Of a stretch of DNA of 64,000 bases, positions 180 to 49,714 are shown piece by piece. This DNA comes from Longitalea arenae (GTDB lineage: Bacteria > Bacteroidota > Bacteroidia > Chitinophagales > Chitinophagaceae). A program made the position numbers and the translations under genes. Location: the NCBI RefSeq assembly GCF_016924755.1, contig NZ_JAFFJX010000004.1, positions 124,001 through 188,000 of the forward strand. Reading direction: 5' to 3'. The first letter of the stretch is position 1, and every line of letters begins with the position of its first letter. Under the pieces are notes generated by a model. That model did no database searches. It was not told where the DNA came from and was given only the letters and a program-made list of their open reading frames with translations.

Positions 180-308
180 GGATTTCTGATTTTGCGATTT
201 CTGATTTCGGGATTTTGATTTACAGTTTAAGAGATTTTGGGATCTCCTCAGCTCTAAAGCTGATAGATCCCAAAATCTCTACATCGCGAAATCTAAAAAT
301 GTTATAGA
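180..308. repeat. 8-bp word array (GATTTYGN type) with perfect hairpin
   Basis: The gap between two GH43 genes is filled by variants of GATTTCTG/GATTTCGG. It contains a perfect 16-bp inverted repeat (230-245 pairing with 265-280) with a second 5-bp stem inside its loop (249-253/258-262). It lies just downstream of the 309-1991 stop codon. Confidence 0.8.
230..280 (-). terminator. 16-bp perfect stem-loop after GH43 gene
   Basis: The arms AGAGATTTTGGGATCT and AGATCCCAAAATCTCT pair perfectly 28 bases after the stop codon of the upstream GH43. No U-tract follows on the minus strand, so it may be an mRNA 3'-end stabiliser or attenuator rather than a classical intrinsic terminator. Confidence 0.45.
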
Positions 309-1991
309 TTACTCGACTATCAATTTCTTCATGATCGTTCTCTCATCACTTACCACTTGTATGGTATAGATGCCGGTTGTATGCGGCACAGGCACCTGTA
401 CTATGTTTGCAGACAATTGCCTGTTCGTATATACCAGCCTGCCATCGCTCGTGTAGATGTTGGTGACAATATACTTTCCAGGCGAGCCGGGAACAATATT
501 CAGGTATTTGCCCCTGGCTACCGGGTTTGGATAAATACTTCGCCCTCGTTCATCGGTCAATACCGGTTGCAGCTGGTTAACTGCTTCCCTGGCCGCAGGT
601 GTTGCAATCAACCATTTCTGGCAATTGCAATCGGAATAATCCTGCAAGCTCAACCTGGTTCCGGCAGTCGTGGAAGAACCGGCAATACTCACGATCCTCG
701 TACCTGAGGCCGGTGTAATAATATGCGAACCGTCTGCCAGGCGCTCAACCTTGTATTTCTGACAGTTATTGTTCAGCCAGGCATACAACTGCATTTGCGT
801 TCCCGCCGCCGTTCCGCAATTGATCACATCGGCTGAAAGACCACCGAGCGCATTGTTGATGCGGTAGTATCCATTGCCCACCGGAACAAAATCCCATTTC
901 TGACAGTTGATATTCGCCCAGGTGCCTTGTGCAATGCCCTGGCCCGATGCGCCGGTACAACCCCAGGCATCCCATACCAGGTTACTGTGTTTATTGGTAA
1001 CCCGGTATTGCCCCGCAGCGATCCAGTCACGGGTAATAAAAGGCCAGCCACCGCTAAAGCCCATGTTGGCAATATCTAATTTGGCATTCCCATTATCGTT
1101 GCCATCATAATAATGCATGGAAACAAAGTTCGATCCGTTCTCTGTCAGCAGGCCTAAATGGCCCGGACCGATATAGCGGCCTGAAGCTCCTAACGCCAGC
1201 GAACCACCGCCGTTGCGCATATCGGTACCGTTCTTGTCAACATAGGGCCCCGTAATACTCGTTGAGCGTCCTACAACAATATAATAGGAACTGCTGGTGC
1301 CATTGCAACAGGTTCCACGATTGGCAAAGAGGTAATAATAACTGCCGTTCTTCACAATACAGGGAGCTTCCCAGTCGGCGCCATTACCGCCGGCAATTCG
1401 GGTAACAGCGGCACCGCTTTTTACTTTGCCTGTTGAGGGGTCCAGTTCAACAATACCGATACCTCCATGCCAGGAACCATAAGACATGTATAACCTGCCA
1501 TCTGAATTCCTGAAGATAGCCGGGTCTATCGCATTGATATCACCGGCAGCGGAAGATGAAACCACTTTTCCGAGGTCTGTCCATACGTAGGCCGATGAAT
1601 GCTGATCGAGCGTAGGTGATGTAGCCACACCGATGGCAGATACCGAAGACCCGAATGTTGAACAGGAATAATAGATATAGTATTTCCCGTTCATGTAGAT
1701 ACAATCGGGCGCCCAGAAGGTCCCGTTGAACCCTGGTACCGCGGCGTTGATCCACGATGGCCAGGTTCCAGCCGGAAATACTGTTTTGGGACCGGATGTC
1801 CATTGATACAGGTTGTTCGAATACGCTGCATAAATGCCATTACCAGTGGTGAACATCCAGTACCGGCTTCCGTCTTTGATGAGCGTGGAAGGATCATGTG
1901 ATTGATAGGCGCCGCCCAGGGCGCTGGCTTGTTCGGGCTGCGATAGCATCAGCATTCCCAAAACAAGCAGATAAGGTAAGTCTTTTTTCAT
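309..1991 (-). CDS. Secreted GH43 arabinan endo-1,5-alpha-L-arabinanase-type enzyme with ricin-type lectin and T9SS tail
   Basis: This 560-residue protein probably cleaves internal alpha-1,5 bonds of arabinan. Residues 1-24 are a signal peptide. The GH43 five-bladed propeller spans about 30-335, with the three expected carboxylates: Asp33 (HDPS), Asp156 (IDPA) and Glu208 (WEAP). A ricin-B-type beta-trefoil follows (about 335-470), recognised by three QKW/QKY blocks (NCQKWDF, NCQKYKV, NCQKWLI). The last ~75 residues (YPNPVARGK ... MKKLIVE) are a type A sorting domain for type IX secretion, so the enzyme should be surface-anchored or released. It lies 29 bases after the GH51 gene in the same operon. 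Exo- versus endo-action cannot be settled from sequence. Confidence 0.9.
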   Translation of the reverse strand: MKKDLPYLLVLGMLMLSQPEQASALGGAYQSHDPSTLIKDGSRYWMFTTGNGIYAAYSNNLYQWTSGPKTVFPAGTWPSWINAAVPGFNGTFWAPDCIYMNGKYYIYYSCSTFGSSVSAIGVATSPTLDQHSSAYVWTDLGKVVSSSAAGDINAIDPAIFRNSDGRLYMSYGSWHGGIGIVELDPSTGKVKSGAAVTRIAGGNGADWEAPCIVKNGSYYYLFANRGTCCNGTSSSYYIVVGRSTSITGPYVDKNGTDMRNGGGSLALGASGRYIGPGHLGLLTENGSNFVSMHYYDGNDNGNAKLDIANMGFSGGWPFITRDWIAAGQYRVTNKHSNLVWDAWGCTGASGQGIAQGTWANINCQKWDFVPVGNGYYRINNALGGLSADVINCGTAAGTQMQLYAWLNNNCQKYKVERLADGSHIITPASGTRIVSIAGSSTTAGTRLSLQDYSDCNCQKWLIATPAAREAVNQLQPVLTDERGRSIYPNPVARGKYLNIVPGSPGKYIVTNIYTSDGRLVYTNRQLSANIVQVPVPHTTGIYTIQVVSDERTIMKKLIVE

Positions 1992-2020
1992 TTGGCAAGT
2001 TTTGAATGGTTAATAAAACA

Positions 2021-3997
2021 TCATTCCAACTTTACCCGCAGCACACTGAATGAATACGGTGAACTGTTCAAAACGATCTTTTTACCTTTTATATTAATGG
2101 TTGATTCAACAGGTGCTACGTTGGTTGGATGCTCGAATGAATTCAAAGCGGTGAGCTCCGACTGCATCACGGTCAGTTTTCCCTTGGCAGCGATCTTTTT
2201 TACGCCATCCAATTGTAAGGTATTGACCTGTGGTTTGTCAGCAGCGTTTACCACTTTAATGATCAATTCATTGGTAGCCGCATCGATACAGGCCGAAGCA
2301 TAGAGGCTGTCCTGCCCGGCGACTACATCATTGTTCAATGTAATGGGTACTACTTTGGAACCTTTGTTCAGGGAGAATAATTTCTGTACATGGTAATCAG
2401 GCGTTCCATAGGACTGCAGGTTGTTCACCCAAATGAGATCAGGCGCCCATTGCCAGCCGTCCACATGTGCAAAGAGCGGTGCATAAGAAGCCATCTGTAC
2501 CACATCGGCATTGCGTTCGAGACCGGTCATAAAAGCGGCTTCTGACAAGGCTGCCAGCCAGGTATTCCGGTTGTGGCCAACCGTTTTGTCAACATGCGAT
2601 GCATATTCGCCACCGAAGACCTTGGAGCCGGTGCGGGGATAGCTGTCATACCTTCTCGCATTTTGCAGGAAAAATTCAGGCTTGCGATAATAGTGTTCGT
2701 CTATAAAATCTGCATTCATCTTGCGCAGCTCGCCATTCAGGTAATCGAAACGCTCGCCATTGGGATCCGTGCCTGAGCTGCAGATCAGCTTGATATTGGG
2801 ATATTTTGCCTTAATGGCCGTCTGGAATGCTTTCAGCCGTTCAATATATTGCGGTCCCCAGTTCTCATTGCCGATGCCCATCATCTTCAGATTAAATGGC
2901 GCCGGATGGCCCATATCGGCTCTTACCTTGCCCCATTTCGTGCTAACATCGCCGTTGGCAAACTCAATGAGATCGAGCGCATCCTGGATATAAGGATCCA
3001 GCGCCTGCATGGGAACCACCTCTGCTGAATTGAACTGGCAGGCCATGCCGCAGTTCAGGATGGGCAGTGGTTCGGCGCCAATATCTTCTGCCAGTTGAAA
3101 GTATTCAAAGAAACCAAGTCCAAAGGTTTGGAAATAATCAGGGGCCGCCCGGTGCGGGAACTCGATATTCCACCGGTTCATCATCAACTGCCTTTCTTCA
3201 ATGGGGCCCACCGTGTTCTTCCAGCGGTAGCGGTTGGAAAGGTCAAATCCCTCCACGATACAACCGCCCGGGAAACGGATAAAGCCTGGTTTCATATCGG
3301 CCAGCAATTGTATCATATCGGCACGCATGCCACCGGGGCGGTTCTTCCAGGTATCAGCGGGAAACAGGGAGATCATATCCAGGTCTACCGTACCATTGCC
3401 TTCAAACCAGATATTCAGTTTTGCTTTCAGTACAGTTTCCCTTGCATGAAAACTTACGGCTGCTTTCTTCCAGTTGTCGCCTGCTTCGGGCAGCGACAAT
3501 ACGGTATCGCCAATAACCTTTTTTAATGTGTCTATTAGTTCGATATGCAATTTCGTGTGTGCCTGAGGTTGGCGATACATCACAGAAAAATCGTACCGCA
3601 CCCCTTTTTTAATACCCATGCCGCGAAAACCTTCATTGGTCAGTCCCAGGTCGCCTTTGGCGGCATTGTTCATGGTAATGCGCAAAAAACGGGGATTGCG
3701 GGTATTTTCATCGGTACGGTTGATCACCAGCAATTCGCCTTCTACGAATTTCTTGCGGTTCACCGTCCAGCCCATCAATGGTTTAAAGAACTCAAATGAA
3801 CGGTTCTTCACCAGCTCGGCGTAAATACCGCCATCTGCGCCCAGGTTGATATCTTCAAAAAACACGCCCCACATGGTGGGCTGAATGGTGGCCGTTGGCT
3901 GTGCGGCTTTCACTACCAGGGTATGGTTTTGTTGGGAAAATACTGGCATGCTCAGCACTGCCACTATCAATAATACAAGCGTTGATCGTTTTATCAT
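2021..3997 (-). CDS. Secreted GH51 alpha-L-arabinofuranosidase
   Basis: 658 residues, signal peptide 1-21 (VFSQ). The mature start matches the longer, Bacteroidota-type GH51 enzymes: WGVFFEDINLGADGGIYAELVKN, then an inserted carbohydrate-binding-like beta domain (about 80-215). The (beta/alpha)8 barrel follows, with GFIRFPGGC, acid/base Glu378 in GIGNENWG and nucleophile Glu464 in FGGEYASH. A C-terminal beta domain ends the protein. It removes terminal arabinofuranose from arabinan or arabinoxylan side chains, working with the neighbouring GH43 enzymes in the periplasm or at the surface. It is about 145 residues longer than the second GH51 at 36048, which lacks the insert. Confidence 0.92.
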   Translation of the reverse strand: MIKRSTLVLLIVAVLSMPVFSQQNHTLVVKAAQPTATIQPTMWGVFFEDINLGADGGIYAELVKNRSFEFFKPLMGWTVNRKKFVEGELLVINRTDENTRNPRFLRITMNNAAKGDLGLTNEGFRGMGIKKGVRYDFSVMYRQPQAHTKLHIELIDTLKKVIGDTVLSLPEAGDNWKKAAVSFHARETVLKAKLNIWFEGNGTVDLDMISLFPADTWKNRPGGMRADMIQLLADMKPGFIRFPGGCIVEGFDLSNRYRWKNTVGPIEERQLMMNRWNIEFPHRAAPDYFQTFGLGFFEYFQLAEDIGAEPLPILNCGMACQFNSAEVVPMQALDPYIQDALDLIEFANGDVSTKWGKVRADMGHPAPFNLKMMGIGNENWGPQYIERLKAFQTAIKAKYPNIKLICSSGTDPNGERFDYLNGELRKMNADFIDEHYYRKPEFFLQNARRYDSYPRTGSKVFGGEYASHVDKTVGHNRNTWLAALSEAAFMTGLERNADVVQMASYAPLFAHVDGWQWAPDLIWVNNLQSYGTPDYHVQKLFSLNKGSKVVPITLNNDVVAGQDSLYASACIDAATNELIIKVVNAADKPQVNTLQLDGVKKIAAKGKLTVMQSELTALNSFEHPTNVAPVESTINIKGKKIVLNSSPYSFSVLRVKLE

Positions 3998-4046
3998 TCT
4001 ATTTAATGCTTAGTTATTAACTTCATTAGTAATTGAGTTATTCGGT

Positions 4047-4083
4047 ATTGAGTGCTCTCAACTTATTAACCTGGCCACTCAAT
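4047..4083 (-). terminator. Intercistronic 8-bp stem-loop
   Basis: ATTGAGTG (4047-4054) pairs with CACTCAAT (4076-4083) just after the stop codon of the GH43 lipoprotein gene. The gap also repeats GTTAATAAGTT-like words. It has no U-tract; it could tune mRNA decay between cistrons. Confidence 0.3.
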
Positions 4084-4093
4084 AACTTATTAA

Positions 4094-5578: not shown

Positions 5579-5644
5579 TACTTATTCAGTTGACAAGCGG
5601 AAAATGTCATTTGCACAATTATAAATATTTCTTCCTTTGTGAAC

Positions 5645-5705
5645 GACCTGTAAGGTGAACTTTATTTTTTTAGGAATGTAGTGGGGCGAGCCCACCTGAC
5701 AGGTC
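5645..5705 (-). terminator. Post-susD hairpin, possible attenuator
   Basis: GACCTGT-A-AGGTG (5645-5657) pairs with CACCT-G-ACAGGTC (5693-5705), giving 12 pairs and one mismatch. A small GTGGG/CCCAC hairpin sits in the loop. It lies 16 bases after the susD stop and before the GH43 gene, where partial termination would make SusCD more abundant than the hydrolases. Confidence 0.45.
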
Positions 5706-5721
5706 TTTTCCCCAAACCGGG

Positions 5722-12611: not shown

Positions 12612-12720
12612 TGATGGCAGTCAAATCGTTCCAATAAATTTAAATGTATTGACCACATTTAAAAAATATTTTTCTAACCGCCTCAATAAGAAGGAAAAAG
12701 GTATGGCATACACCAAATAA

Positions 12721-12757
12721 ATGTGCCATTCCGCCGCTGAGTGGTGGAATGGCACAT
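12721..12757 (-). terminator. Strong 15-bp hairpin after kduI
   Basis: ATGTGCCATTCCGCC (12721-12735) and GGTGGAATGGCACAT (12743-12757) pair over 15 bases with one G-U pair and a 7-base loop, 61 bases past the kduI stop. The minus-strand sequence after the stem is TTATTTGG, a weak U-run. Flanking GTATGGCATACACC and GGTGTACCATAC could extend the structure. Confidence 0.65.
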
Positions 12758-12818
12758 CCTAAGTTCAGGTGTACCATACTTTAAACGGTGGCACACCTTA
12801 TTTAAATAGTATAGTATA

Positions 12819-13649: not shown

Positions 13650-13722
13650 AATTCTCTAATTGTATAATAGTCATTGATGAGTAAAGTTGCGTTTTTACGT
13701 GCAGCTTATGACCATGATTTGT

Positions 13723-13858
13723 GAATGTGCTAATTTACTAATGTGCTAATGTGCTAATAGAATGCACTCCTTAATGCTTGCTTTCGCGTAAATTTTTATT
13801 TTACGAACATTCCGGCTTGATATATTAGCACATTATCTAATTAGCAAATCAGCTAATT
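13723..13858. repeat. 8-bp ATGTGCTA word array in inverted halves
   Basis: The left half carries ATGTGCTAAT-type words (13723-13759) and the right half their reverse complements TTAGCACAT, TTAGCAAAT and CAGCTAAT (13823-13858). The halves can fold together. The right half ends 4 bases from the kduD stop codon. Confidence 0.75.
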
Positions 13859-13861: not shown

Positions 13862-14632
13862 TTATCTCCCCATCCAGCCGCCGTCAACGGTAATAATGGT
13901 TCCGGTAACATAATCAGAAGCCGGAGAGGCCAGGTATACAGCAGCGCCCTTCATATCATCGCCTTCGCCCCAACGGCCGGCAGGAATACGCGCCAGGATC
14001 GACTTCGCACGCTCGGGATCATTACGCAATGCTTCCGTATTGTCTGTTGATATATAACCGGGCGCAATGGCATTCACCTGTACGCCTTTCGAAGCCCATT
14101 CGTTCGAGAGGGCCATGGTAAGGCGGGCAATAGCGCCTTTGCTGGCCGCATAACCAGGCACCGTAATACCACCCTGGAAACTCAATAAAGAAGCGGTGAA
14201 GATGATCTTACCACTTCCGCGCTGGATCATGTCCTTACCAAATTCGCGGCTTAAAATAAACTGGGCATTGAGGTTCACGTTGATCACTTCGTCCCAGTAT
14301 TCATCCGGGTGTTCGGCTGCGGGTTTACGCATAATGGTACCGGCGTTGCAGAACAGGATATCAACGGGCGCATTTTCTCCTTTCACCTTGTCGATAAAAG
14401 TATAGATGGCTTTACGATCATTGAAATCGGCCTGGTAGGCTTTAAAAGAACGGCCGGTAGCTTCCACTTCCTGCTGCACTTTACTGCCTGTTAATTCCAG
14501 GCTCGCAGATACCCCGATAATGTCTGCGCCTGCTTCGGCCAGTGCAACTGCAATTGATTTACCGATGCCTCTTTTACAGCCTGTAACCAGTGCGGTTTTT
14601 CCTGCCAATGAAAATTTTGAAAGAATGCTCAT
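13862..14632 (-). CDS. kduD: 2-dehydro-3-deoxy-D-gluconate 5-dehydrogenase KduD
   Basis: 256-residue classical short-chain dehydrogenase. It reduces 2,5-diketo-3-deoxygluconate to 2-keto-3-deoxygluconate with NAD(P)H. The cofactor motif TGCKRGIG (residues 17-24), NAG near 96-98, catalytic Ser148, Tyr161 and Lys165 (YAASKG) and a C-terminal ITVDGGWMGR are all present. SDR sequence alone would not fix the substrate; the neighbouring kduI and GH28 genes, together with the N-terminal FSLAGKTALVTG pattern typical of KduD, make this assignment strong. Confidence 0.9.
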   Translation of the reverse strand: MSILSKFSLAGKTALVTGCKRGIGKSIAVALAEAGADIIGVSASLELTGSKVQQEVEATGRSFKAYQADFNDRKAIYTFIDKVKGENAPVDILFCNAGTIMRKPAAEHPDEYWDEVINVNLNAQFILSREFGKDMIQRGSGKIIFTASLLSFQGGITVPGYAASKGAIARLTMALSNEWASKGVQVNAIAPGYISTDNTEALRNDPERAKSILARIPAGRWGEGDDMKGAAVYLASPASDYVTGTIITVDGGWMGR

Positions 14633-20494: not shown

Positions 20495-20682
20495 GTTACC
20501 GGTTACCGGTTACCGGTTGCAAGTTTCAAGTTCCAGGTTCCTGGCTACAAGTTCCAGCTTGCCGTTATCAACCCCTGCAACTTGCATCCTGTAACCCGGA
20601 ACCGCGATTATCACATTATCACATTAGCCCATCAGCACATCAGCACATCAGCACATCAGCACATCAGCACATTAGCTAATTA
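20495..20682. repeat. Mixed 7-bp and 8-bp word array between glpK and glpF
   Basis: The section near glpF has GGTTACC words (20495-20518). Then come CAAGTTCCAGGTTC words with an inverted counterpart (CTGCAACTTGCATCCTGTAAC), and last five tandem CAGCACAT words. The array runs directly into the glpK stop codon at 20683. Confidence 0.8.
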
Positions 20683-22167
20683 TCACTCTTCCGCCCACGC
20701 TTTTGCCGCCCGGATCGCTTTCTGCCATCCCTTCGTCAACGCAATGGCATTGCCGCTTTCCGGTGAAAAGTTTTTATTGAGCTTCCATTGCTTTTTGATC
20801 TCATCCACATTTTTCCAGTAGCCTACGGCCAGTCCGGCCAGGTAAGCCGCACCAATGGCAGTGGTTTCCGTGATCTCAGGCCTTATAACGGTTGCCTGTA
20901 ACACATTGGCCTGGATCTGCAAGAGCAGGTCATTGGCGGTAGCGCCGCCATCGACCCGGAGTTCTTTAATGGGCGAACCTGCATCGGCCTGCATGGCGGT
21001 TAACACATCCATGGTCTGCAGCGTTATGCTTTCCAGGGCTGCGCGGGCAATATGGGCGGCTGTTGTACCTCTTGTGATACCTACGATGGTGCCGCGGGCA
21101 TGCTGATCCCAGTAGGGAGCGCCCAGTCCGGCAAAAGCGGGCACCAGGTATACGCCACCGTTATCAGGAACCTGTTTGGCCAGTTCTTCCACCTGGGAAG
21201 AATGGGTAATGATGCCGAGGCCATCGCGCAGCCATTGAACTACGGCGCCGCCGATAAAGATACTGCCTTCCAGGGCGTATTGCACTTTGCCATCGATCTG
21301 CCAGGCAATGGTTGTTACCAGGTTATTTTTTGATACGATCGGTTTGTCGCCGATATTCATCAACATAAAGCAACCGGTGCCATAGGTATTTTTCACCATG
21401 CCGGGTTCTGTGCACATTTGCCCGAACAGCGCCGCCTGCTGATCACCCGCAATCCCGGCAATAGGGATCTGCGCAGCCAGGATCTGTGCGTCGGTATGCC
21501 CGAACACTTCGCTCGACGAGCGTACTTCCGGTAACATGGATGCGGGCACATCCAGTAATTGCAGCAGCTCTTTATCCCATTGGCAGCTATGAATATTGAA
21601 AAGCATCGTGCGCGATGCATTGGTAATATCGGTTGCATGTACTTTACCGCCGGTCAGCTTCCATACCAGCCAGGTATCAATAGTACCAAAGGCCAGTTTT
21701 CCTGCTTCGGCTTTTTTGCGGGCGCCTGCAACATTGTCGAGGATCCACCGGATCTTGGTGCCGGAAAAATAAGCATCTACGATCAACCCGGTCTTTTCCT
21801 GTATGAGGTTACCCGATTGTATTTTGAGCTCATCGCAAAAGGCGGCGGTACGCCGGTCCTGCCATACAATGGCATTATGCACGGGAACGCCGGTCTCTTT
21901 ATCCCATACCACGGTTGTTTCGCGCTGGTTGGTAATGCCAATGGCAGCAATATCGGTTGCTTTCAATCCGGCCTTGCTTACCGCTTCCACGGCTACGGCC
22001 AGTTGGGTGCCCCAGATCTCCCCGGCATCATGTTCTACCCAACCGGGCTGCGGATATAACTGCGTGAATTCTTTCTGGGCGATAGAGATAATGGAACCTG
22101 CCTGATCGAAGATGATGGCGCGTGAACTGGTTGTTCCCTGGTCGAAAGACAAGATGTATTGAGGCAT
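20683..22167 (-). CDS. glpK: Glycerol kinase
   Basis: 494 residues, usual length for GlpK. It phosphorylates glycerol with ATP to sn-glycerol-3-phosphate in the cytoplasm. The FGGY-family ATPase fold is evident: phosphate-1 motif [15 protein letters not shown] (7-21), glycerol-site [12 protein letters not shown], the PGW segment [37 protein letters not shown] and [13 protein letters not shown]. The near-universal [12 protein letters not shown] closes the substrate site. It lies in the glycerol gene run, between the channel and an esterase. Confidence 0.96.
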
Positions 22168-22223
22168 GTTTACTTCGTTATTATCGTTAGTTATTACATT
22201 TATGTAGATCGATCTAAAGTACG

Positions 22224-22306
22224 TGTTACAGGTTCCAGGTTTCAGGTTCCAGGTTGCAAGAGTAAAGAACCTGCATAAAAGGCCCTGTAACTTGTAACCT
22301 GTAGCT
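22224..22306. repeat. 7-bp CAGGTTN word array
   Basis: The glpK-proximal side has CAGGTTC/CAGGTTT words in tandem (22229-22258). The esterase-proximal side has inverted versions (CTGTAACTTGTAACCTGTAG). This is a stem-capable arrangement between the SGNH gene stop and the glpK start. Confidence 0.75.
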
Positions 22307-23014: not shown

Positions 23015-23029
23015 ATGTGCTATTGCAAA

Positions 23030-23105
23030 TTTTGAGATTTTTAGATTTTGGGATTTCTTTTGTTCAATCAGTTCCTGTTTTTACAAAATCCGAAAATCAG
23101 TGATT
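23030..23105. repeat. 8-bp GATTTTGN word array
   Basis: TTTTGAGATTTTTAGATTTTGGGATTT-like words are followed by inverted AAAATCCGAAAATCA. They fill the gap between the phosphoesterase stop (23132) and the esterase start (23014). Confidence 0.6.
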
Positions 23106-24550: not shown

Positions 24551-24572
24551 TATACAGATTAGTTTTCAGTCG

Positions 24573-24846
24573 TGATTGGTCAATGGTCAATGGTCAATGG
24601 TGAATGGTCAATCCGCTCTGCGGGGATTACGCTTTCCATATTCCAGCATTCTTGTTTTTCGGCTACCAGAGACGCCATCATCACGGCGCTGGTTGCAAGC
24701 AGTGCAAGAATGGCCCGGACAAACGTTTGCGTTTTGCTTTCGACTTCGGCCTTTAGGGTTCAGCCTTTTGCTTTCAGCGCCTGTCCGCTTTTGGCGGATT
24801 CAGCGTTTTGCTTCAGCCTTCCGCTTTCAGCACATAGCCTTCCGCC
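24573..24846. repeat. 7-bp GGTCAAT array plus GCTTTCAGC-type words
   Basis: Five tandem GGTCAAT/GGTGAAT words (24578-24612) lie beside the phosphoesterase start. At 24736-24846 a second family (CCTTTTGCTTTCAGC, CCTTCCGCTTTCAGC) runs into and across the 3' end of glpD, so the last codons of glpD are written in repeat words. TCCGC-TTTTG-GCGGA forms a small hairpin near 24785. Confidence 0.65.
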
Positions 24847-27650: not shown

Positions 27651-27930
27651 CTGATGTGCTAATGTGCTAATTTGCTAGTGAAAACACAAATAGCTAATTT
27701 TCTAATGTGCTAATGAAAACACAATTAGCTGATGTGCTAATTAGCTAATGTGCTAATTAAAAACCAATACAGATGAATTAGCAAATCAGCACTTTGACAT
27801 TAGCACATCGACATTAGCACATCAGCACATTAGCACATCAGCACATTAGCACATCGACATCAGCACATCAGCACATCAGCATATTAGCACATCGACATTA
27901 GCACATCATCACATTAGCACATCAGCACAT
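27648..27930. repeat. Long 8-bp word array between convergent genes
   Basis: The array reads TAGCTGAT, GTGCTAAT, ATGTGCTA and so on up to ~27765, then switches to reverse-complement words (TTAGCACAT, CAGCACAT) to the end. GATGTGCTAATGTGCT (27653-27668) is exactly complementary to 27824-27839. The left end contains the GlpR-type stop (TAG) and the right end contains the ECF sigma stop (TGA). Confidence 0.9.
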
Positions 27931-29478: not shown

Positions 29479-29857
29479 TTGACAATTTGACAGCGTTGAT
29501 AAGAGCTTAATAAAGTTCAGATAGTTAATAGCGTTGAGAAAGTATTAGTTTCTCTATATCATTAAGGCATGTATTTCATTAGCACATCAGCATATTAGCA
29601 CATCAGCACATTAGAAAATCGGCACATCAGCCAATTGCTTCCCCTGGCATCCGAATTGCGTATTGCTCGGTGGAATTTTAATATAAATACCTTTCATTCA
29701 GAAAGAGTTAATATATAAAATCAGGCGCGTACCTATGCTTTATAATATCCAATATATGCCCCCCTGATGCGATTTTTCCCCAACCACATTTCAGCATGCC
29801 CCTATGCATCCATCGCCGTATAATTTTAATTGAATTAAAAATCAGAAATTATTGGCT
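29479..29857. other. Intergenic region with short word array
   Basis: 379 bases after the AraC gene. At 29578-29636 there are about six 8-bp words (TTAGCACAT, CAGCATAT, CGGCACAT). The rest is AT-rich leader of the glycosyltransferase gene without a clear open frame. TATAATTTTA near 29819 is a loose match to a -7 element. Confidence 0.5.
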
Positions 29858-33130: not shown

Positions 33131-33246
33131 ATTTCTGATTTTGAGATTTCTGATTTCGAGATTTCTCATTTCGGGATTTCTGATTTCGGGATTTCTGATT
33201 TTGAGATTTTAAATCCTGAAATCAAGAAATCAGAAATCTCAAAATC
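33131..33246. repeat. 8-bp GATTTCTG word array forming a 21-bp perfect stem
   Basis: The whole gap between convergent genes is array. Bases 33137-33157 are exactly complementary to 33226-33246, giving a 21-bp stem whose loop holds further pairing words. One arm starts 7 bases after the debranching gene stop; the other touches the isomerase stop codon. It is suited to act as a bidirectional 3'-end structure. Confidence 0.9.
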
Positions 33247-37781: not shown

Positions 37782-38210
37782 AGTTAGCAGTTCACAGTTC
37801 TCAGTTGGCAGTTGGCAGTTCACAGTTCAAAGTTCAAAGTTGACCGTTCACAGTTCTCAGTGGCAGCCTGCAACCGCGCTGAGCGCTGCAACCCCGCTGA
37901 CCGGTACAAGCCCTGCAACTTGCAACCTGCAACCTGTAACACCCCCCTCCTAGCCCATCGCCTATTCGTTACTCCTAACAACCACGCCGAACGGAACAAG
38001 CCCTGCAACTTGCAACCTGCAACCTGTAACACCCCCCTCCTAGCCCATCGCCTATTCGTTACTCCTAACAACCACGCCGAACGGAACAAGCCCTGTAACC
38101 TGCAACTTGTAACATTTGCCCATTGCCAATTGCATATTGCCCATTGGTTACTCCCTGCAACCACGCTGACCGGGACAAGCCCTGCAACCTGCAACCTGTA
38201 ACCTGTAACA
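37782..38210. repeat. 7-bp word arrays with a 90-bp tandem period
   Basis: CAGTTNN words (37782-37860) are followed by CTGCAAC/TTGCAAC words organised in a 90-bp unit. Copies start at 37906, 37996 and 38086 (the third partial), and a diverged fragment occurs at 38160-38205. Long open frames across this stretch are repeat translations, not genes. This is the only large array in a divergent gap (GH51 and fdhD). Confidence 0.9.
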
Positions 38211-38226
38211 TCCGCCTCCCTGCCCA

Positions 38227-38260
38227 TTGGCTAACCCCTTCTCCCTTTTCACTAACTTTG
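38227..38260 (+). promoter_or_regulatory. Promoter of fdhD, nearly leaderless
   Basis: TAACTTTG (38253-38260) matches the Bacteroidota -7 box TAnnTTTG exactly, with TTGG (38227-38230) 22 bases upstream as a -33 element. The ATG of fdhD is only 4 bases after the -7 box, so the transcript should start at or next to the start codon. Confidence 0.6.
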
Positions 38261-39080: not shown

Positions 39081-39295
39081 TTTGTAGTTTGTGGTTTGTG
39101 GTTTGTGGTTTGTGGTTCGACATTCATGGTTTAAATTAATAACCGAACCCAGCATTGGATATGTTGCCAACCGCCAACTAAGAACTCTGAACTAAGAACT
39201 GCTAATGCCAACCGCCAACTAAGAACTCTGAACTAAGAACTGCTAATGCCAACCGCCAACTAAGAACTCTGAACTAAGAACTGTGAACTAACAAA
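39081..39295. repeat. GTGGTTT array and a 41-bp nested tandem repeat
   Basis: GTGGTTT words (39083-39118) start at the fdhD stop. At 39166-39288 there are three copies of a 41-bp unit (starts 39166, 39207, 39248), itself made of 7-bp words (GCCAACC, GCCAACT, AAGAACT, CTGAACT, AAGAACT). Confidence 0.9.
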
Positions 39296-39302
39296 TCATA
39301 CC

Positions 39303-41609: not shown

Positions 41610-41756
41610 TTGCCGGTTGCCGGTTACCGGTTGCCGGTTGCCAGTTACCGGTTGCCAGTTAGCGGTTGCCGGTTACCAGTTGCCGGTTGCCGGTTACGCG
41701 TTGCCGCAGGAACCACAAACCACAAACAACAAACAACAAACCACAAACAACAAAAT
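41610..41756. repeat. GGTTRCC array joined to AACMACA array
   Basis: About twelve GGTTGCC/GGTTACC/AGTTACC words start at the base after the oxidoreductase stop (to ~41700). Then AACCACA/AACAACA words (41709-41755) run to the stop codon of the convergent PEBP gene. The second block is the reverse complement of the GTGGTTT words at 39083. Confidence 0.9.
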
Positions 41757-43389: not shown

Positions 43390-43402
43390 TCACCCAGCCC
43401 TG

Positions 43403-43432
43403 CCATTCACCATTGACCATTCACCAGTAAAC
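43403..43432. repeat. Short 7-bp ATTCACC/ATTGACC array
   Basis: Three to four words (ATTCACC, ATTGACC, ATTCACC) fill the convergent gap and extend over the stop of the 43421 gene. They are the reverse complement of the GGTCAAT family at 24578. Confidence 0.6.
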
Positions 43433-44013: not shown

Positions 44014-44046
44014 TTTGCAGAAAGCATGCGGAAGAATTTTCTTTTG
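44014..44046 (+). promoter_or_regulatory. Candidate promoter of the trehalose synthase fusion
   Basis: TTTG (44014-44017) is followed after 21 bases by TTCTTTTG (44039-44046), one mismatch from TAnnTTTG, 38 bases before the ATG. Spacing fits Bacteroidota -33/-7 promoters; the mismatch keeps confidence low. Confidence 0.3.
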
Positions 44047-44084
44047 GCATAAAAATTATGTGGATTGTATTATAACCGGTAATA

Positions 44085-47000
44085 ATGAAATCCACAACAC
44101 CTGTATTAAACGATAAATTGCACTGGTATAAAGATGCCATCATTTATGAATTACACATTAAAGCGTTCTGTGACAGCAACGGCGACGGCATGGGTGATTT
44201 CGGCGGTCTGCTGCAAAAGCTGGATTATTTGCAGGAACTGGGAGTGAATGTGATCTGGCTGCTGCCATTTTATCCTTCGCCGCTGCGTGATGATGGCTAC
44301 GATATCGCCGATTACTATAATATCAATAGCTCCTATGGCAACATCAGCCAGTTGAAGACCCTGCTCGATGAGGCCCATCAGCGGAACCTGAAGATCATTA
44401 CCGAACTGGTCATTAACCACACTTCTGATCAGCATCCCTGGTTTCAACGGGCACGCACCGCACCCAAGGGCTCACCGGAAAGGGATTTCTACGTATGGAC
44501 TGATGATCCCACCCAATACAAGGACGTGCGGATCATTTTCCAGGATTTTGAAGCGTCGAACTGGACCTGGGACCCGGTTGCCGAACAATATTACTGGCAC
44601 CGCTTTTTTCATCACCAGCCCGATCTGAACTACGACAACCCGCTGGTACAGCAGGAAGTGTTCAACATTATCGATTATTGGTGTAATATGGGCGTTGATG
44701 GTTTCCGGCTCGATGCCGTGCCTTATTTGTTCGAACGCGAAGGCACCAATGGCGAGAACCTGCCGGAAACCCATGCTTTCCTGAAACGGTTACGGGCACA
44801 TGTAGATGCGAAGTACCCCGGCACTGTGCTGCTTGCGGAAGCCAATATGTGGCCCGAAGATTCGGCCTCCTATTTTGGCGAGGGCGATGAATGCCATATG
44901 AACTATCACTTCCCCGTAATGCCGCGCATGTTCATGGCGCTGCAAATGGAAGACCGTTATCCGATCACCGATATCTTCGATCAAACACCCGCTATTCCAC
45001 CCACCTGCCAGTGGGCTATTTTCCTGCGCAATCACGATGAGCTTACGCTGGAAATGGTTACCGATGAAGAGCGGGATTATATGTATAAAGTGTATGCAAA
45101 AGACCCCAAGGCGCGCATTAACCTGGGCATCCGGCACCGGCTGGCGCCCCTGATGGAAAATAACCGCGAAAAGATCGAATTGCTCAACTCCCTGCTGTTC
45201 TCCCTGCCCGGTACACCCGTTATCTATTATGGCGATGAGATCGGCATGGGTGATAATTTTTATTTAGGCGACCGGGATGGCGTACGCACGCCCATGCAAT
45301 GGTCGCCCGACCGCAATGCCGGTTTTTCCAGTTCCAATCCGCATCAGCTTTACCTGCCCCTGATCCTCGATCCGGAGTATCATTACGAGTCGGTAAATGT
45401 AGAAATGCAGCGCCGCAATACTTCCTCGCTGTTCTGGTTCATGAAACGCATGATCAACATGCGCAAAAAGCACCGGGCCTTTGGCCGTGGCGATCTCACG
45501 TTCCTGAACGTGGACAATCCCAAAGTGCTTGCCTTCCTGCGGAAGTATGAAAACGAAACTTTGCTCATTGTAGTGAACCTGTCGAAATTTGCGCAGGTAG
45601 CCGAAGTTCCCCTCGAAGGTTATAAAGGATTTGCCCTTATAGAACTCATGAGCCGGAATAAATTCCCGGCCGTAGGTAAGGCTGAGACATACTTTTTTAC
45701 CCTGGGCCCGCACACCTGGCTCTGGTTCTCGCTTGAAAAAGCACATCCCGAAATAGATGATCAAAAAGCAATTCCACTGCTGCAGGTAAAGAAATTCGAG
45801 GATCTCGTTAGTAAATCAACCCGCACAGAACTGGAAAATGCCGTATTGGCGGCGTACCTGAAGCAATCCAAATGGTTTACCGGCCGGGCGCGCTCTGTTT
45901 ACAATATAGAGATCATCAACCATGTGCCCATACCACTCGAACCGCACGACGCTTTACTACTACTGATAGAAGTTACGTATGAAAGCGGTTTACCGGAATT
46001 ATACCAGCTCATAATAACCTTTGCTCAAAATGCGGTAGCCAGAAAGCTGGAAAGCAGTTTTCCCCAATCCATCATCGCCCATATGCATGTGGGTGAGCAG
46101 GAAGGCATGCTGGTAGATGCGCTGTTTGTCACCGGTTTCCAGCAATGGCTTTTTCAGCATATAGCCCGCAATGAAACCCTGGCAGGCAGGGATAATAACA
46201 AACTGCGTTTCTTCAATAACGGCACCATCGGTACTTATGCCGCACAACATGACGACATCCGGTCAAAAATGCATGAAGGGAACCGGTATCAGACTGCCAT
46301 TACCTATGATAACAGTTTCTTCCTGACCTTTTACCGGCGGGTGGATTACTATATCAATCCCGACGCAGAGATCACGCATTTCCTGAGCGAACAGTCAAAG
46401 TTCCCCTATGTGCCCACTTTCCACGGCGCCATTGAATGGAGCATGGAAAAAGGCATGATCACGATGGGCATGATACAAAAGATGGAAGAGAACCACGGTA
46501 ATGGCTATACTTATATGCTGGAGCGCGTGTACAATTATATTGAACGGATACTGGCCATGAACCAGGACAACCTGCCTACCTGGGAACACCAGGGCAGCCT
46601 TACCGATCCGGTGGCCTTTGAGCAATTGCCGAATGAACTGAGGGACCTGCTAAGCAGCCGCGCTGCCGATCAGGCCCGCCTGATCGGTACCCGCACCGGA
46701 GAAATGCACCTGGCGCTGGCCTCCGGTATATCGCTGAAAGATTTTAAACCGGAAGAATTTTCATTACACTACCAGCGGTCGCTGTTCTCGGCCATGGTAT
46801 CACTGGTGCGGGAAGTATTTCAGAACCTGAAAAGAAATTTGGATAAAGTACCCGCCTCCCTGCGTGCCGACGCTGAAGAACTGCTGAAACGGCGCGATGA
46901 TGTATTGAACGTGTTCAAAAAGATATACACCAAAAAACTGGATGTACTGAAGATCCGCATCCATGGGAATTACACCTTAAGCCAGGTATTGCTTACCGGA

Positions 47001-47402
47001 AGGGATATTTCGATCAAAGGTTATGGCGGCGATCCGCTTCGCCCCTACAGCGAACGCAGATTAAAAAGATCTCCGCTGCACGATGTGGCCACCATGCTGC
47101 GCTCATTTCATAACGCGGTATATGAAGGATTCCAACAGAACAATCATATCGTGAAAGAAGATCTGTCGAAGTATATTCCCTTTATTCGTTTATGGGCGCA
47201 TTATATGACCGGCTTTTTCATGAAAGCATATCTGGATACGGTCAGCGGCAGCCAGTTTGTGCCTGCCGACAAATCTGATTTCCGGGTGCTGATACAAACC
47301 TTTTTACTGGAGAAATCACTGCTCGACCTGAACCATGCCTTGAACAATGGATTCACATCGATGGTGGTGCCTATGCGGACGATAAAGGCAATCGTGAAAT
47401 AA
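44085..47402 (+). CDS. treS: Trehalose synthase (maltose alpha-D-glucosyltransferase) fused to a degenerate maltokinase domain
   Basis: 1105 residues, cytoplasmic. The first ~555 are GH13 trehalose synthase (HWYKDAIIYELHIKAFCDSNGDG, GFRLDAVPYL with nucleophile Asp210, LLAEANMWPED with Glu252, RNHDEL with Asp318), interconverting maltose and trehalose. The rest is a maltokinase-type domain, commonly fused in bacteria so that maltose becomes maltose-1-phosphate for GlgE. Here the kinase motifs are broken. The catalytic loop expected as HGDxHLGQ reads HGNYTLSQ (Asn962), and the metal motif DFEGEP reads GYGGDP (979-984). Surrounding scaffold (RPYSERRLKRSPLHDVATMLRSF) is intact. The TreS part is therefore likely active, the kinase part probably not. 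Confidence 0.92.
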   Translation: MKSTTPVLNDKLHWYKDAIIYELHIKAFCDSNGDGMGDFGGLLQKLDYLQELGVNVIWLLPFYPSPLRDDGYDIADYYNINSSYGNISQLKTLLDEAHQRNLKIITELVINHTSDQHPWFQRARTAPKGSPERDFYVWTDDPTQYKDVRIIFQDFEASNWTWDPVAEQYYWHRFFHHQPDLNYDNPLVQQEVFNIIDYWCNMGVDGFRLDAVPYLFEREGTNGENLPETHAFLKRLRAHVDAKYPGTVLLAEANMWPEDSASYFGEGDECHMNYHFPVMPRMFMALQMEDRYPITDIFDQTPAIPPTCQWAIFLRNHDELTLEMVTDEERDYMYKVYAKDPKARINLGIRHRLAPLMENNREKIELLNSLLFSLPGTPVIYYGDEIGMGDNFYLGDRDGVRTPMQWSPDRNAGFSSSNPHQLYLPLILDPEYHYESVNVEMQRRNTSSLFWFMKRMINMRKKHRAFGRGDLTFLNVDNPKVLAFLRKYENETLLIVVNLSKFAQVAEVPLEGYKGFALIELMSRNKFPAVGKAETYFFTLGPHTWLWFSLEKAHPEIDDQKAIPLLQVKKFEDLVSKSTRTELENAVLAAYLKQSKWFTGRARSVYNIEIINHVPIPLEPHDALLLLIEVTYESGLPELYQLIITFAQNAVARKLESSFPQSIIAHMHVGEQEGMLVDALFVTGFQQWLFQHIARNETLAGRDNNKLRFFNNGTIGTYAAQHDDIRSKMHEGNRYQTAITYDNSFFLTFYRRVDYYINPDAEITHFLSEQSKFPYVPTFHGAIEWSMEKGMITMGMIQKMEENHGNGYTYMLERVYNYIERILAMNQDNLPTWEHQGSLTDPVAFEQLPNELRDLLSSRAADQARLIGTRTGEMHLALASGISLKDFKPEEFSLHYQRSLFSAMVSLVREVFQNLKRNLDKVPASLRADAEELLKRRDDVLNVFKKIYTKKLDVLKIRIHGNYTLSQVLLTGRDISIKGYGGDPLRPYSERRLKRSPLHDVATMLRSFHNAVYEGFQQNNHIVKEDLSKYIPFIRLWAHYMTGFFMKAYLDTVSGSQFVPADKSDFRVLIQTFLLEKSLLDLNHALNNGFTSMVVPMRTIKAIVK

Positions 47403-47667
47403 TATGCTGATGTGCTGATTTGCTGATGTGCTGATGGAATACAGTTCCAATAATCAACGAGAAACGATGTGCTGATCGGGAACAATGTGCTAATTTGCTG
47501 ATGTGCTGATGTGCTGATGGAATACAGTTCCGATAATCAACGAGAAACGATGTGCTGATCGGGAACAATGTGCTAATTTGCTGATGTGCTGATGTGCTGA
47601 TGGTATACAGTTCCGATGATCAAGGGGTTTTTAATTAGCAAATCAGCACATTAGCAAATCAGCTAAT
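47403..47667. repeat. 8-bp ATGTGCTG array with 83-bp tandem period
   Basis: Starts at the treS stop codon. The marker ACAGTTCC recurs at 47441, 47524 and ACAGTTCC at 47607, i.e. a period of 83 bp. Inverted words (TTAGCAAAT, CAGCACAT) close the array at 47634-47667, abutting the terminator of the opposite-strand transcript. Confidence 0.9.
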
Positions 47668-47893
47668 AAAAAAGAGCGGTCCTTTCGAACCGCCCCCGTC
47701 TAACGTTGGTAGCTTGTGTTATTACTAACCGCGATGCTATCAGCGTTTGCTTAACCAATTCAGGTCTTCGAGTTAAGATAACAGAATGTTTTTTCTGTTT
47801 TTCCGGACAGTTAGTTTTCTGTTTCCGTTCTTGCCTCTTTTCAAACAATAGCGAAACAGTGTTACTAATTTTCCTGCTTAACTGATCACCCAT
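47663..47893 (-). CDS. Doubtful 76-codon basic frame, possibly a small RNA locus
   Basis: A 76-residue frame rich in Lys and Arg (ERKQKTNCPEKQKKH) without recognisable homology. A strong intrinsic terminator lies inside its last ten codons, so a transcript ending there would lack a stop codon. Either the frame is not a gene and the locus makes a small RNA of ~200-300 nt, or the terminator is inefficient. Kept as a candidate only. Confidence 0.2.
   Translation of the reverse strand: MGDQLSRKISNTVSLLFEKRQERKQKTNCPEKQKKHSVILTRRPELVKQTLIASRLVITQATNVRRGRFERTALFY
47668..47695 (-). terminator. Intrinsic terminator on the minus strand
   Basis: On the minus strand GGGGGCGGT-TCGAAAGG-ACCGCTC is followed by TTTTTTATT. 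The stem is short (5-6 bp) but GC-rich, and the U-tract is strong. It implies leftward transcription from the 47700-47960 region. Confidence 0.65.
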
Positions 47894-48137
47894 CGATTAA
47901 TCTGATATAAATGTACACCCAAAAGAAAACGGAAACAATGACCGCCATCATAACACAAATATTTCTAAACCAATGATCCTAATCAAGATCGTGTTACTAA
48001 TTTAATTTGTATCTGCTTAATCGTCATTCAATTGTATTTTACTTTCAACAAGGTGGCCAGTAAAATCGTTATTGATACAATTGAAGTGATATTTATTGGT
48101 AAATTACTGGCAAATTCATCCGGTTTCGGCAAAGTAT
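47894..48137. other. AT-rich gap with a 13-bp direct repeat
   Basis: GTGTTACTAATTT occurs at 47859-47871 and again at 47991-48003; a looser copy (GTGTTATTACTAA) is near 47717. Otherwise the sequence is AT-rich without an array or an obvious gene. It separates the candidate minus-strand transcript from the 48138 gene. Confidence 0.4.
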
Positions 48138-48782
48138 ATGACAACATTCTGGACAGAAGATAGCATCCTGACCAATCAAAGCGATTCCACACCGCCTGCT
48201 GAAATATTCGATGCCTTTTGTCAGGCCATCGGGTTTTACTATCAGCAGAAGGGATACAAGTACACTAAAAGCCGGCCTAAAGTAAAAATAGAATCCAGGG
48301 ACCTTTTTGTAGAGATCAATTTCTGGAGCTCCAGGAGCAATATGGCAGGCAGCAATGTAGGCCTGGAAATATTGCCCTATGTAGGTTCCAAAAAATTAAA
48401 AAAATGGATCAAGACCAATAAGACCGGCCGCAACGAATATATTTACGGTCCTACCAAATACGATTTCCGTTTTCAGAATATCTACGGCGCCACCGTCGAT
48501 TTTTTCCTCGACCTCATTCTTAAGATCGATAAATACATCGCTTCCAACCTGAATATAGAGGACAACGCAAAATTCATAAACCGGCTGCTCGCCGAGAACA
48601 ACAGCGACATCATCACCGATAATTTTGCCTGCTACCTGGCCATGACCAATGACCCGCGCTTAGCCGACTTCATCGATGATCACCACGAAGGCATTGGCGA
48701 AGAGTTGAGTAATAAGTTACGTGCCCTGGCTCCCCCGGCGCCCCTGAAGGGCGAAACCAATGTGTCGAATTTTGGCATCTAG
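48138..48782 (+). CDS. Uncharacterised cytoplasmic protein
   Basis: 214 residues from the ATG at 48138; the frame also opens at a TTG at 48096, which would add 14 residues of ordinary-looking sequence. The N-terminal ~100 residues (PAEIFDAFCQAIGFYYQQKGYKYTKSRPKVKIESRDLFVEINFWSSRS) have the alternating pattern of a mixed alpha/beta domain, somewhat like DUF4304-type proteins, but I cannot confirm it. The C-terminal half is helical. No signal peptide. Its stop is 13 bases before a word array. Context gives no functional clue. Confidence 0.6.
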   Translation: MTTFWTEDSILTNQSDSTPPAEIFDAFCQAIGFYYQQKGYKYTKSRPKVKIESRDLFVEINFWSSRSNMAGSNVGLEILPYVGSKKLKKWIKTNKTGRNEYIYGPTKYDFRFQNIYGATVDFFLDLILKIDKYIASNLNIEDNAKFINRLLAENNSDIITDNFACYLAMTNDPRLADFIDDHHEGIGEELSNKLRALAPPAPLKGETNVSNFGI

Positions 48783-48795
48783 CATAGAGGATGCT

Positions 48796-48905
48796 GATTT
48801 CGAGATTTTGAGATTTTGAGATTTCGAGATTTCGAGATTTCGAGATTTTGAGATTTACCTGACATGCAAATCTCACCCGATCACAAATCAGGAAATCTCA
48901 AAATC
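48796..48905. repeat. 8-bp GATTTYGA array with inverted arm
   Basis: Nine tandem GATTTCGA/GATTTTGA words (48796-48855) are followed by an inverted block. Bases 48812-48825 are exactly complementary to 48892-48905. The array fills the gap between convergent genes (stops at 48782 and 48925). Confidence 0.9.
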
Positions 48906-48924
48906 GGAAATTTCTCCAGCGTTG

Positions 48925-49563
48925 TTAAGGCAAAACTTTCACCTGGATATTCTTGTAGTAAACTTTACTGTTTGGGTCATGTCCCTGCAAGGCGAAGGTT
49001 CCGCTCGATAATGTGCGCCCGTTCATATCCGCCGGCCGTTGCACATTTTTGGGTTCGGTGTATTCTACGACCGTTCTTCCGTTCACTTTCACGGTCACTT
49101 TTTTATTCTGCACAATGATCTCTTCGGTAAACCATACATTGTCTTTTACCAGCACATCTTTTACGTCACTAACTGCATATAAACTTCCGGTGCGGCGCCA
49201 GTCGGTATGCGAATTATTTACCTGTACTTCGTATCCTTTTTTAGGCCAGTCGCTTTCCTGGTAGGCAGTATGAAAATAGATCCCTGAGTTTGATCCGGGC
49301 GTGGTCATCACATCTGCTTTAAAATGGAAATTTTTGAAGTTGTGGCCCTGCACAGGGCCATCGTAAAACAGGTGGGCCACATTTCCATGAGCAACGATCC
49401 TTCCGCTATCCACAGAAAAGGTAGCGGCGTTCTGGCCCACCTTCCAGCCGGTGAGCGTTTTTCCATCGAACAGAGAGATCCATTGTTTCGACCCCTTTTG
49501 AGCAAGTGCGGAAACAGCCAGCAAACAGCCGGAAAACATTAAGAGGTATGATAATCTTCGCAT
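48925..49563 (-). CDS. Secreted DUF1080 (3-keto-disaccharide hydrolase-like) protein
   Basis: 212 residues, signal peptide 1-21 (VSALA-QK). The concanavalin-like sandwich begins WISLFDGKTLTGWKVG, the DUF1080 signature, and includes NFKFKADVMTT-like strands (KNFHFKADVMTTPGSNSGIYFHTAYQ), GYEVQVNNSHTDW and LQGHDPNSKVYYKNIQVK. Members of this large family bind or hydrolyse 3-keto-glycosides. No ketoglycoside dehydrogenase is near, so the substrate is not suggested by context. It is transcribed away from the convergent word array. Confidence 0.88.
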   Translation of the reverse strand: MRRLSYLLMFSGCLLAVSALAQKGSKQWISLFDGKTLTGWKVGQNAATFSVDSGRIVAHGNVAHLFYDGPVQGHNFKNFHFKADVMTTPGSNSGIYFHTAYQESDWPKKGYEVQVNNSHTDWRRTGSLYAVSDVKDVLVKDNVWFTEEIIVQNKKVTVKVNGRTVVEYTEPKNVQRPADMNGRTLSSGTFALQGHDPNSKVYYKNIQVKVLP

Positions 49564-49688
49564 GCTTATCGTTTGCGTGAAGGTAAGGGTTTAGCAAACG
49601 AAAAGTTGTTACGGGTTCCCAGTCGCGGGTTTCCGGGCCAGAAAATTTAAGATACGTGACAGTTCTCAGACTGCCCTGATTTTTTGGC

Positions 49689-49714
49689 CCGGCACCCGGT
49701 AACCGGTAACCGGC
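49689..49714. repeat. Short GGTAACC array at the aldo/keto reductase stop
   Basis: CCGGTAACCGGTAACCGGC runs directly into the stop codon at 49715. It is the GGTTACC family in reverse orientation. Confidence 0.6.

Follow-up and report, generated by a model that had tools for sequence, protein, structure and literature searches.

The window analysed here, a stretch of 64,000 nucleotides (positions 124,001 to 188,000 of contig NZ_JAFFJX010000004.1), lies in the 7.28-Mb genome of Longitalea arenae, a species that is placed in the GTDB genus Niastella. Among named relatives Longitalea luteola comes closest (93% identity in a 726-aa protein), followed by several Niastella species. Many intergenic gaps of the window are filled by tandem arrays of short words with a fixed length of 7 or 8 bp (Table 1). 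A unit consists of a degenerate array of one word (the F arm), a short centre, and an array of reverse-complement words (the R arm). We read the arrays as dispersed, probably mobile elements that resemble repetitive extragenic palindromes (REPs) or foldback elements.

Tandem-word arrays and their polarity

Arrays were detected by scored lag-matching. Genes were called with a custom dicodon script, in which stop codons are reliable and start positions less so. At a score cut-off of 14, arrays are found in 14 gaps of the window; adding those at 181-221 and, more weakly, at 43403-43426 gives the 16 gaps with words of fixed length that the original prediction, based on the letters of the window, had put forward as a minimum. 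The eight stop codons at which it had placed arrays all turned out to have one, with array edges at 27651, 33131, 39081, 41610 and 20682 (0 bp from the stop), 49713 (1 bp), and 47405 and 41754 (2 bp). A search of Rfam at the gathering threshold returned zero matches across the window.

The two word lengths are a property of the spacers in general. In 864 kb of the L. arenae genome, the 64-kb window included, 489 gaps (110,727 bp) yielded 44 arrays with period 7 and 41 with period 8, whereas periods 14, 15 and 16 contributed 12, 2 and 9 arrays (23 together) and the remaining periods from 3 to 20 only 9 combined. One Markov shuffle of each gap produced 2 arrays of any period, and 256,647 bp of coding sequence (every third gene) contained 7 arrays in total, 2 of which had period 7. 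After enlargement of the sample to 1.224 Mb, 183 arrays were counted in 132 of 692 gaps: 90 of the 468 co-directional, 25 of the 100 convergent and 17 of the 124 divergent gaps. The single divergent exception that had been noted is therefore correct for the window and does not extend to the genome.

In many of the 68 gaps that were displayed, the left arm repeats one word (GGTTACC, GTGCTAAT, GATTTCGA, AGTTCAC, GGTTTGT or GGTCAAT) and the right arm consists of reverse-complement words. When the orientation of the words was fixed from the window and each word family was counted once per orientation per gap, 116 cases in the rest of the L. arenae sample agreed with this polarity and 24 disagreed (convergent 24:1, co-directional 83:18, divergent 9:5). 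A leave-one-gap-out classifier gave 148 versus 33 arrays, with 2 undecided. All of the 21 cases in loci from four further genomes agreed as well, with gene calls that are rough there and based on a few short loci. In the sister species, one family with AAATCTC as its left word contradicts the F and R labels. Successive arrays within a gap were ordered FR in 30 cases, FF in 12, RR in 8 and RF in 0, with one undecided (26, 7, 6 and 1 with a cruder classification); the FF and RR pairs may stem from nesting or internal duplication. Of the 23 FR pairs that could be assigned, 15 have both arms from one family; shuffling gave a mean of 6.1 and, in 5,000 rounds, a maximum that was likewise 15. A further 7 pairs could not be assigned.

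Table 1. Array-bearing features of the window (F and R, arms in forward-word and reverse-complement orientation)
Feature	Position	Strand	Details
Inverted unit, 8-bp GTGCTAAT family	13717..13858		F 13717-13758, R 13824-13858; 3 bp from stop of gene 13862-14632 (-)
F arm, 7-bp GGTTACC/GGTTCCA family	20495..20544	+	
R arm, 8-bp CACATCAG (GTGCTAAT family on -)	20607..20682	-	Flush with stop of gene 20683-22167 (-)
Inverted unit, GGTTACA family	22220..22303		F 22220-22258, R 22284-22303; L. luteola has a homologous unit
F arm, GATTTTGA family	23029..23056	+	
F arm with degenerate R arm	24561..24778		F GGTCAAT 24561-24612, R 24737-24778; arms flank a segment that looks conserved between species
Convergent stop-to-stop spacer	27651..27921		F (GCTAATGT) 27651-27757, R (ATTAGCAC) about 27777-27921; both stop-flush
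R-type array, GTGCTAAT family	29577..29631	-	
Convergent spacer full of GATTTC(T/GA) words	33131..33246		F 33131-33209, R 33218-33246
Divergent gap	37782..38227		F AGTTCAC 37782-37861; R-type CCTGCAA arrays within 90-bp tandem repeat 37889-38227
F array with R array in tandem repeat	39081..39291		F GTTTGTG 39081-39117, stop-flush; R AACTAAG in 41-bp perfect tandem 39165-39283
Convergent spacer, arms of different families	41610..41754		F GGTTGCC 41610-41706, R AACCACA 41711-41754
F arrays (GTGCTAAT family) in tandem repeat, R array	47401..47667		F in 83-bp tandem 47401-47623; R 47633-47667
Inverted unit, GATTTCGA	48796..48914		F 48796-48856, R to 48914
GGTTACC array	49688..49713	-	In sense after stop of gene 49715-50713 (-)

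Three of these features show higher-order tandem repeats of 90, 41 and 83 bp (37889-38227, 39165-39283 and 47401-47623), which overlie the word arrays with matches of 80-100%.

Docking at stop codons

The distance from array to stop and start codons, measured in the 1.224-Mb sample, shows enrichment at stops and none at starts. Of the 121 arrays in co-directional gaps, 33 start no more than 6 bp from the stop codon, where 7.8 were expected (none of 2,000 simulations was as high), and 8 lie within 6 bp of the start, where 8.0 were expected. Convergent gaps have 19 of their 33 arrays at such a distance from a stop, versus 5.3 expected, again higher than any simulation. Most of the co-directional docking is in F sense: 30 of the 52 co-directional F-sense arrays, compared with 3 of the 69 R-sense arrays, lie within 6 bp of the stop, while the corresponding numbers for the start are 0 and 8. 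Although the R sense makes up 69 of the 121 co-directional arrays, only 19 of those 69 are closer to the stop than to the start. With a looser cut-off (up to 20 bp) and a smaller sample the stop excess was weak (24 of 76 versus 16.0 expected). Flush arrays overlap the coding sequence only slightly, with a median of 1 bp and at least 3 bp in 20 of 53, stop codon counted.

Docking extends to other genomes, in particular to G012, where 7 of 18 arrays are at most 6 bp away from a stop versus 0.5 expected (1 near a start), and G381, with 6 of 15 versus 0.8 (1 near a start). In G634 the numbers are 5 of 11 versus 2.5 (2 near a start), in G423 1 of 3 versus 0.3 (2 near a start), and in G186 the one array is near neither codon.

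The stop codon at flush arrays is TAG in 21 of 53 cases, compared with 163 of 668 gene ends that face gaps. Some flush arrays seem to provide the stop codon themselves.

The original prediction had called the arrays 3'-end elements rather than random slippage. Its second half agrees well with the two fixed periods, the near absence from coding sequence, the motif-like words common to unlinked arrays (see below), and an excess of flush arrays at stops that is lacking at starts. The first half needs revision, since the unit is a pair of arms of opposite polarity, R-sense arrays are mostly found on the start side, and divergent gaps carry arrays as well. A cis-acting function at 3' ends, in which the words would be bound by a protein that recognises DNA or RNA and that terminates transcription or trims or protects the mRNA, the array being selected while its word drifts, seems a doubtful explanation, despite being in line with the docking in co-directional and convergent gaps, its recurrence in G012 and G381, and fixed and variable word positions that resemble a binding motif. 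Such a function fits poorly with co-directional R arms that are chiefly start-side, with the arrays in 17 of 124 divergent gaps, and with the presence of an array in one sister species alone at 27 of 163 syntenic gaps.

Canonical terminators (a GC-rich hairpin followed by a T run) were identified at 7 of 51 flush-array stop sides, at 17 of 85 stop sides in other array gaps and at 116 of 436 array-free stop sides, so that the flush arrays as a class lack the make-up of intrinsic terminators. Since terminators are somewhat rarer beside flush arrays than at array-free stop sides (p=0.06), which speaks for a 3'-end function, a role of the arrays in termination is possible. RNA folding, on the other hand, argues against such a function, as it is not increased at flush-array stop sides: the mean z is -2.17 (n=40) versus -2.06 for array-free sides (n=60 sampled), and z is below -2 in 16 of 40 versus 33 of 60.

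Words, core and turnover

Six word families cover 139 of the 183 arrays. Families were assigned with at most 3 mismatches per word, a rule that caps total divergence and does not select positions, and within each family the words behave like motifs, with nearly fixed positions next to two to four variable ones. In GGTTACC (223 copies in 39 arrays) positions 2, 4 and 6 are 98% G, 96% T and 99% C, whereas position 1 is G or A, position 5 A or G (with some C and T) and position 7 C or A. The GTGCTAAT family (43 arrays) varies at positions 1, 4 and 6, and less at 2; the GGTGAAT family varies at positions 3 and 4. A GAATACAG-like motif may accompany GTGCTAAT arms, AATACAG or its complement being present in 10 of 92 array gaps versus 20 of 397 others.

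A conserved core was discovered by reading unit centres by eye and then searching with a pattern. With up to 3 mismatches the pattern GGCGGCGCAAGATCNNTNATTAAT gave 81 matches in 10 of 10 genomes of the genus, 3-13 in each, and its reversed control gave 0. The core (GGCGGCGCAAGATC...) is present in all 10 genomes and was found in one family only. Thirty of the 81 loci were read (three listed per genome, with their loci). In most of them the core sits between F-type and R-type words, and the left words vary among loci; the order is GGCAAT/GGCAGA/GGCAAAA-like words, AATTTC or similar, the core, a TCAAAAATCGCGAGC-like stretch, and ATTCACC/ATTGACC or related words, with weak or deviating arms at some loci (e.g. 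L148, L152, L154, L158 and L162). Single-strand folds showed no consistent hairpin among the 12 core loci listed. The left arm has more copies in 16 and the right arm in 12 of the 30 loci, which indicates that there is no general bias in arm length. More than 20 copies were found in left arms only, at 5 of 30 loci (L140, L142, L146, L159 and L160); these arms consist of near-identical 7-bp copies, a sign of recent expansion.

Neutral mutation alone, by slippage of 7-8 nt together with template switching in quasi-palindromes, tolerated in unconstrained spacers, appears unlikely to have produced the arrays. It would agree with the very long left arms, with the tandem duplications of 41, 83 and 90 bp in the same gaps, and with the observation that heptamers form the commonest such repeat class in most genomes of an earlier survey, as stated in PMC4679880. 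It does not lead one to expect that substitutions should fall at specific word positions and mostly choose between two bases, in families of as many as 43 unlinked arrays, nor a conserved core, nor identical words in other taxonomic families, nor arms that are not collinear copies.

Gene order over 22 kb is largely kept in eight relatives, and orthologous gaps often differ in the words of their arrays. In the sequence listed for the gap 33131-33246, L. arenae and L. luteola share GATTTC, N. vici and N. yeongjuensis have GAAGTAG, a Niastella metagenome-assembled genome has GAGTTAAC and Niastella sp. OAS944 has GGTTACC; neither N. populi nor N. soli shows an evident array.

The comparison with L. 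luteola covered 424 kb of L. arenae sequence and 187 syntenic gap pairs, 163 of which reach 30 bp. Both species carry arrays in 38 of the 163 gaps, and 11 of these 38 share at most 14% of their 6-mers. A strict one-sided array, with a score of at least 13 in one species and below 10 in its sister (a score that 0.6% of shuffled gaps attain), occurs in 27 gaps: 22 in L. luteola only and 5 in L. arenae only. The other gaps comprise 8 with a one-sided array and a weaker partner array, 83 with neither and 7 with weak arrays only. An initial one-sided count of 35 gaps had overstated the differences, because several partners hold weaker arrays.

The edges of these gaps indicate how far the changes reach. 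Homology was scored over 40 bp on each side, excluding pairs in which either gap is shorter than 40 bp. In the strict one-sided class 19 of 21 start-side edges are homologous and only 5 of 29 stop-side edges. Array-free pairs give 55 of 77 on the start side and 24 of 55 on the stop side, and pairs with arrays in both species 22 of 35 and 23 of 41. As the start side is kept and the stop side rarely so, gain or loss of an array alters the DNA up to the stop codon. The window gap 12612-12818 was by eye the nearest case to a clean insertion, L. luteola having a full unit between matching flanks. In the region 24551-24812 a segment flanked by arms of both types, F and R, is seemingly conserved among species, which suggests that such a segment can escape the turnover around it.

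An identical word is found again in distant Bacteroidota lineages. Triples of GTGCTAAT were present in 7 of 395 Bacteroidota genomes, with controls at 0 in all seven; there are 24, 9 and 31 matches in three other families and single matches in three genomes. GGTTACA triples were found in 10 of 10 genus members and in 2 of 29 others. Triples of the GGTGAAT type occur in 126 of 244 Chitinophagaceae genomes, patchily inside genera, and congeners may differ sharply (1477 matches in G012, 5 in G126); since the reversed GGTGAAT control was non-zero in some genomes, strongly so in G000, single counts call for caution. One could imagine a phylum-wide, scattered Bacteroidota system, in which a factor acting in trans would recognise or write degenerate 7- or 8-nt words and rebuild the spacer after the stop as inverted arrays, the word changing while place and polarity persist; we consider this broader proposal rather improbable.

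Candidate enzymes and relation to known elements

A gene with a Y1_Tnp match (E near 1e-20) is present once per genome in 10 of 10 genomes of the genus. It encodes 142 aa in the 6 genomes in which the whole protein was read, and the next gene looks aroB-like by eye. Words of the GGTGAAT family lie in both orientations in the gap upstream of this gene in 9 of the 10 members, whereas in the tenth, N. yeongjuensis, no words of this family were seen upstream by eye. No gene was linked to word families other than GGTGAAT. Among the 244 genomes, a Y1 homolog occurs in 47 of 58 array-rich versus 92 of 186 other genomes (p=2e-5, kinship ignored). The signature YxxxQxxHH corresponds to subclass 1.2 as defined in the available text of Quentin et al. 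(2018, PMC6006769), where the proteins of this subclass are described as not sharing the properties of insertion sequences. The single-copy Y1 (HuH) transposase is a weakly supported candidate for the mover of the arrays and no more than a lead. Judged by flanks matched by eye, several Chitinophagaceae genera carry a Y1 transposase gene at one common locus (L180-L189 and L217-L232), an unusual site for a transposase.

Tentatively, and at slightly less than even odds, we favour dispersed inverted-repeat elements with tandem-word arms that are gained, lost and replaced, and that would move as non-autonomous elements through an enzyme acting in trans, possibly the Y1 protein. In this view the units lie in spacer DNA that is free of constraint, from a stop codon up to the following promoter or stop, and their repeated gain, loss and replacement there would bring the F arm to abut the stop codon. 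Movement may resemble that of REPs and bacterial interspersed mosaic elements (BIMEs), of miniature inverted-repeat transposable elements (MITEs) or of foldback elements, and slippage may lengthen the arms.

Several observations weigh against these mobile elements. No transposition was observed, and the alignment search of syntenic gaps revealed no clean insertion of a whole unit, no empty site and no target-site duplication. It did yield 9 long indels with matching flanks, 3 of which contain arrays, two lying inside existing arrays and one being R-type only. The arms belong to different families in 8 of 23 FR pairs, and the best in-register identity is 0.824 within units versus 0.822 between units (n=15), from which it follows that the arms are not inverted copies of one another. 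A masked gap-to-gap BLAST (63 pairs within L. arenae, E up to 0.05) showed no recurring centre for the other families. Eleven array-rich genomes, among them G012 and G050, lack a match to the Y1 protein, so that its link to the arrays is unproven, and among 20 Y1 loci of other genera 17 are not accompanied by any array within 40 bp; the remaining three are G108, G119 and G149, the last with a 16-bp repeat of a different sort. Finally, docking at stop codons is not accounted for by mobility alone.

The arms could also have been written by a telomerase-like or other templated polymerase that tails 3' ends at spacer breaks with 7- or 8-nt words, the tailed ends being joined afterwards. The F strand runs 5' to 3' away from each gene block, as expected of a tailed end, and the polarity on both sides of the spacer, a family common to both arms without collinearity, and DNA altered up to the stop would follow as well. 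We nevertheless regard this as highly improbable, since a conserved core between the arms is unexpected and the enzyme considered as a generator does not follow the arrays. A reverse transcriptase of about 500 aa has a match in 9 of 10 genus genomes, and the L. arenae copy (L118 5490-7004, on contig C2 of G000) scores best as retron type XIII (PADLOC RT_XIII). It does not track the arrays: G015 has a match of about 500 aa and one array only, CTTT-like, in 80 kb sampled, whereas in G012 and G022 arrays occur without any RVT_1 match. The enzyme was consequently rejected as a generator of the arrays.

Foldback transposons carry inverted termini in which short tandem repeats enclose a small core; they are eukaryotic, with far longer units, and encode or derive from DDE-type transposases. 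Foldback elements and MITEs have terminal inverted repeats around a shared core; here a core was found in 10 of 10 genus genomes for one family, and none for the other families. The target-site duplications and clean empty sites typical of such elements were not found in the alignments of syntenic gaps. The short tandemly repeated repetitive (STRR) heptamers of Cyanobacteria are dispersed 7-bp tandem arrays in non-coding DNA and are not known to have an inverted-arm layout or stop docking.

The nearest published case found is that of MacGregor (2015, PMC4679880), in which the heptamer TAACTGA forms direct repeats in Beggiatoaceae, Cyanobacteria and some Bacteroidetes. According to the available text, these too are tandem intergenic 7-bp words that occur sporadically in distant taxa, share gaps with other heptamer arrays, and are absent from some shorter gaps of relatives. 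They differ in being a single word, mostly located just upstream of start codons in the best-studied genome, and in that text they are described without inverted arms, core, word turnover or general stop docking, one set lying after a stop. The L. arenae arrays likewise include tandem intergenic heptamers, but they comprise several families and are not concentrated at starts (8 versus 8.0 expected).

REPs, BIMEs and REPINs (REP doublets forming hairpins), with their TnpA-REP proteins (REP-associated tyrosine transposases, RAYTs), are similar in being dispersed palindromic spacer elements with several families per genome, and perhaps also in having a low-copy Y1 gene next to such an element, as far as the available text of PMC6006769 and PMC3733652 goes. 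In the same text REPs measure 20-40 bp, mostly carry a GTAG/CGTC tag and have no tandem-word stems described, and subclass 1.2 Y1 proteins have no REP assigned in that of PMC6006769. With their inverted arms, the 183 arrays in 132 of 692 gaps qualify as dispersed palindromic intergenic elements. Their arms are 7- or 8-bp tandem words and the units are longer than a REP; the GTAG/CGTC tag was absent by eye from the displayed units, no automated tag search being made.

In the open-licence literature of PubMed Central, which was covered in part, no recognised description of inverted tandem-word arrays at stop codons was found. The arrays are a real and abundant element type that is apparently undescribed, with dispersed palindromic or tandem-word repeats as its closest class. 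Its presence in 132 of 692 spacers and its turnover at conserved gene pairs make it a major force in rebuilding the DNA after genes. If a protein indeed reads or writes the words, it would represent a new sequence-specific system that acts at gene ends; without such a protein, it would still have to be explained why the words are motif-like and why the arrays dock at stops. The arrays are also a likely source of false, repeat-derived protein annotations.

A second Y1 gene of about 200 aa, read in four members of the genus (L198-L201), was discarded as a candidate: no array of period 7 or 8 was found in the 4.5 kb covered, and L201 has a 15-bp repeat far off. In other genera, repeats of another kind, for example GCCCCATCGGGGC or GCCCTGTAAGGGC, flank some Y1 genes (L204-L206, L213 and L216) and have the look of ordinary REP-like hairpins.

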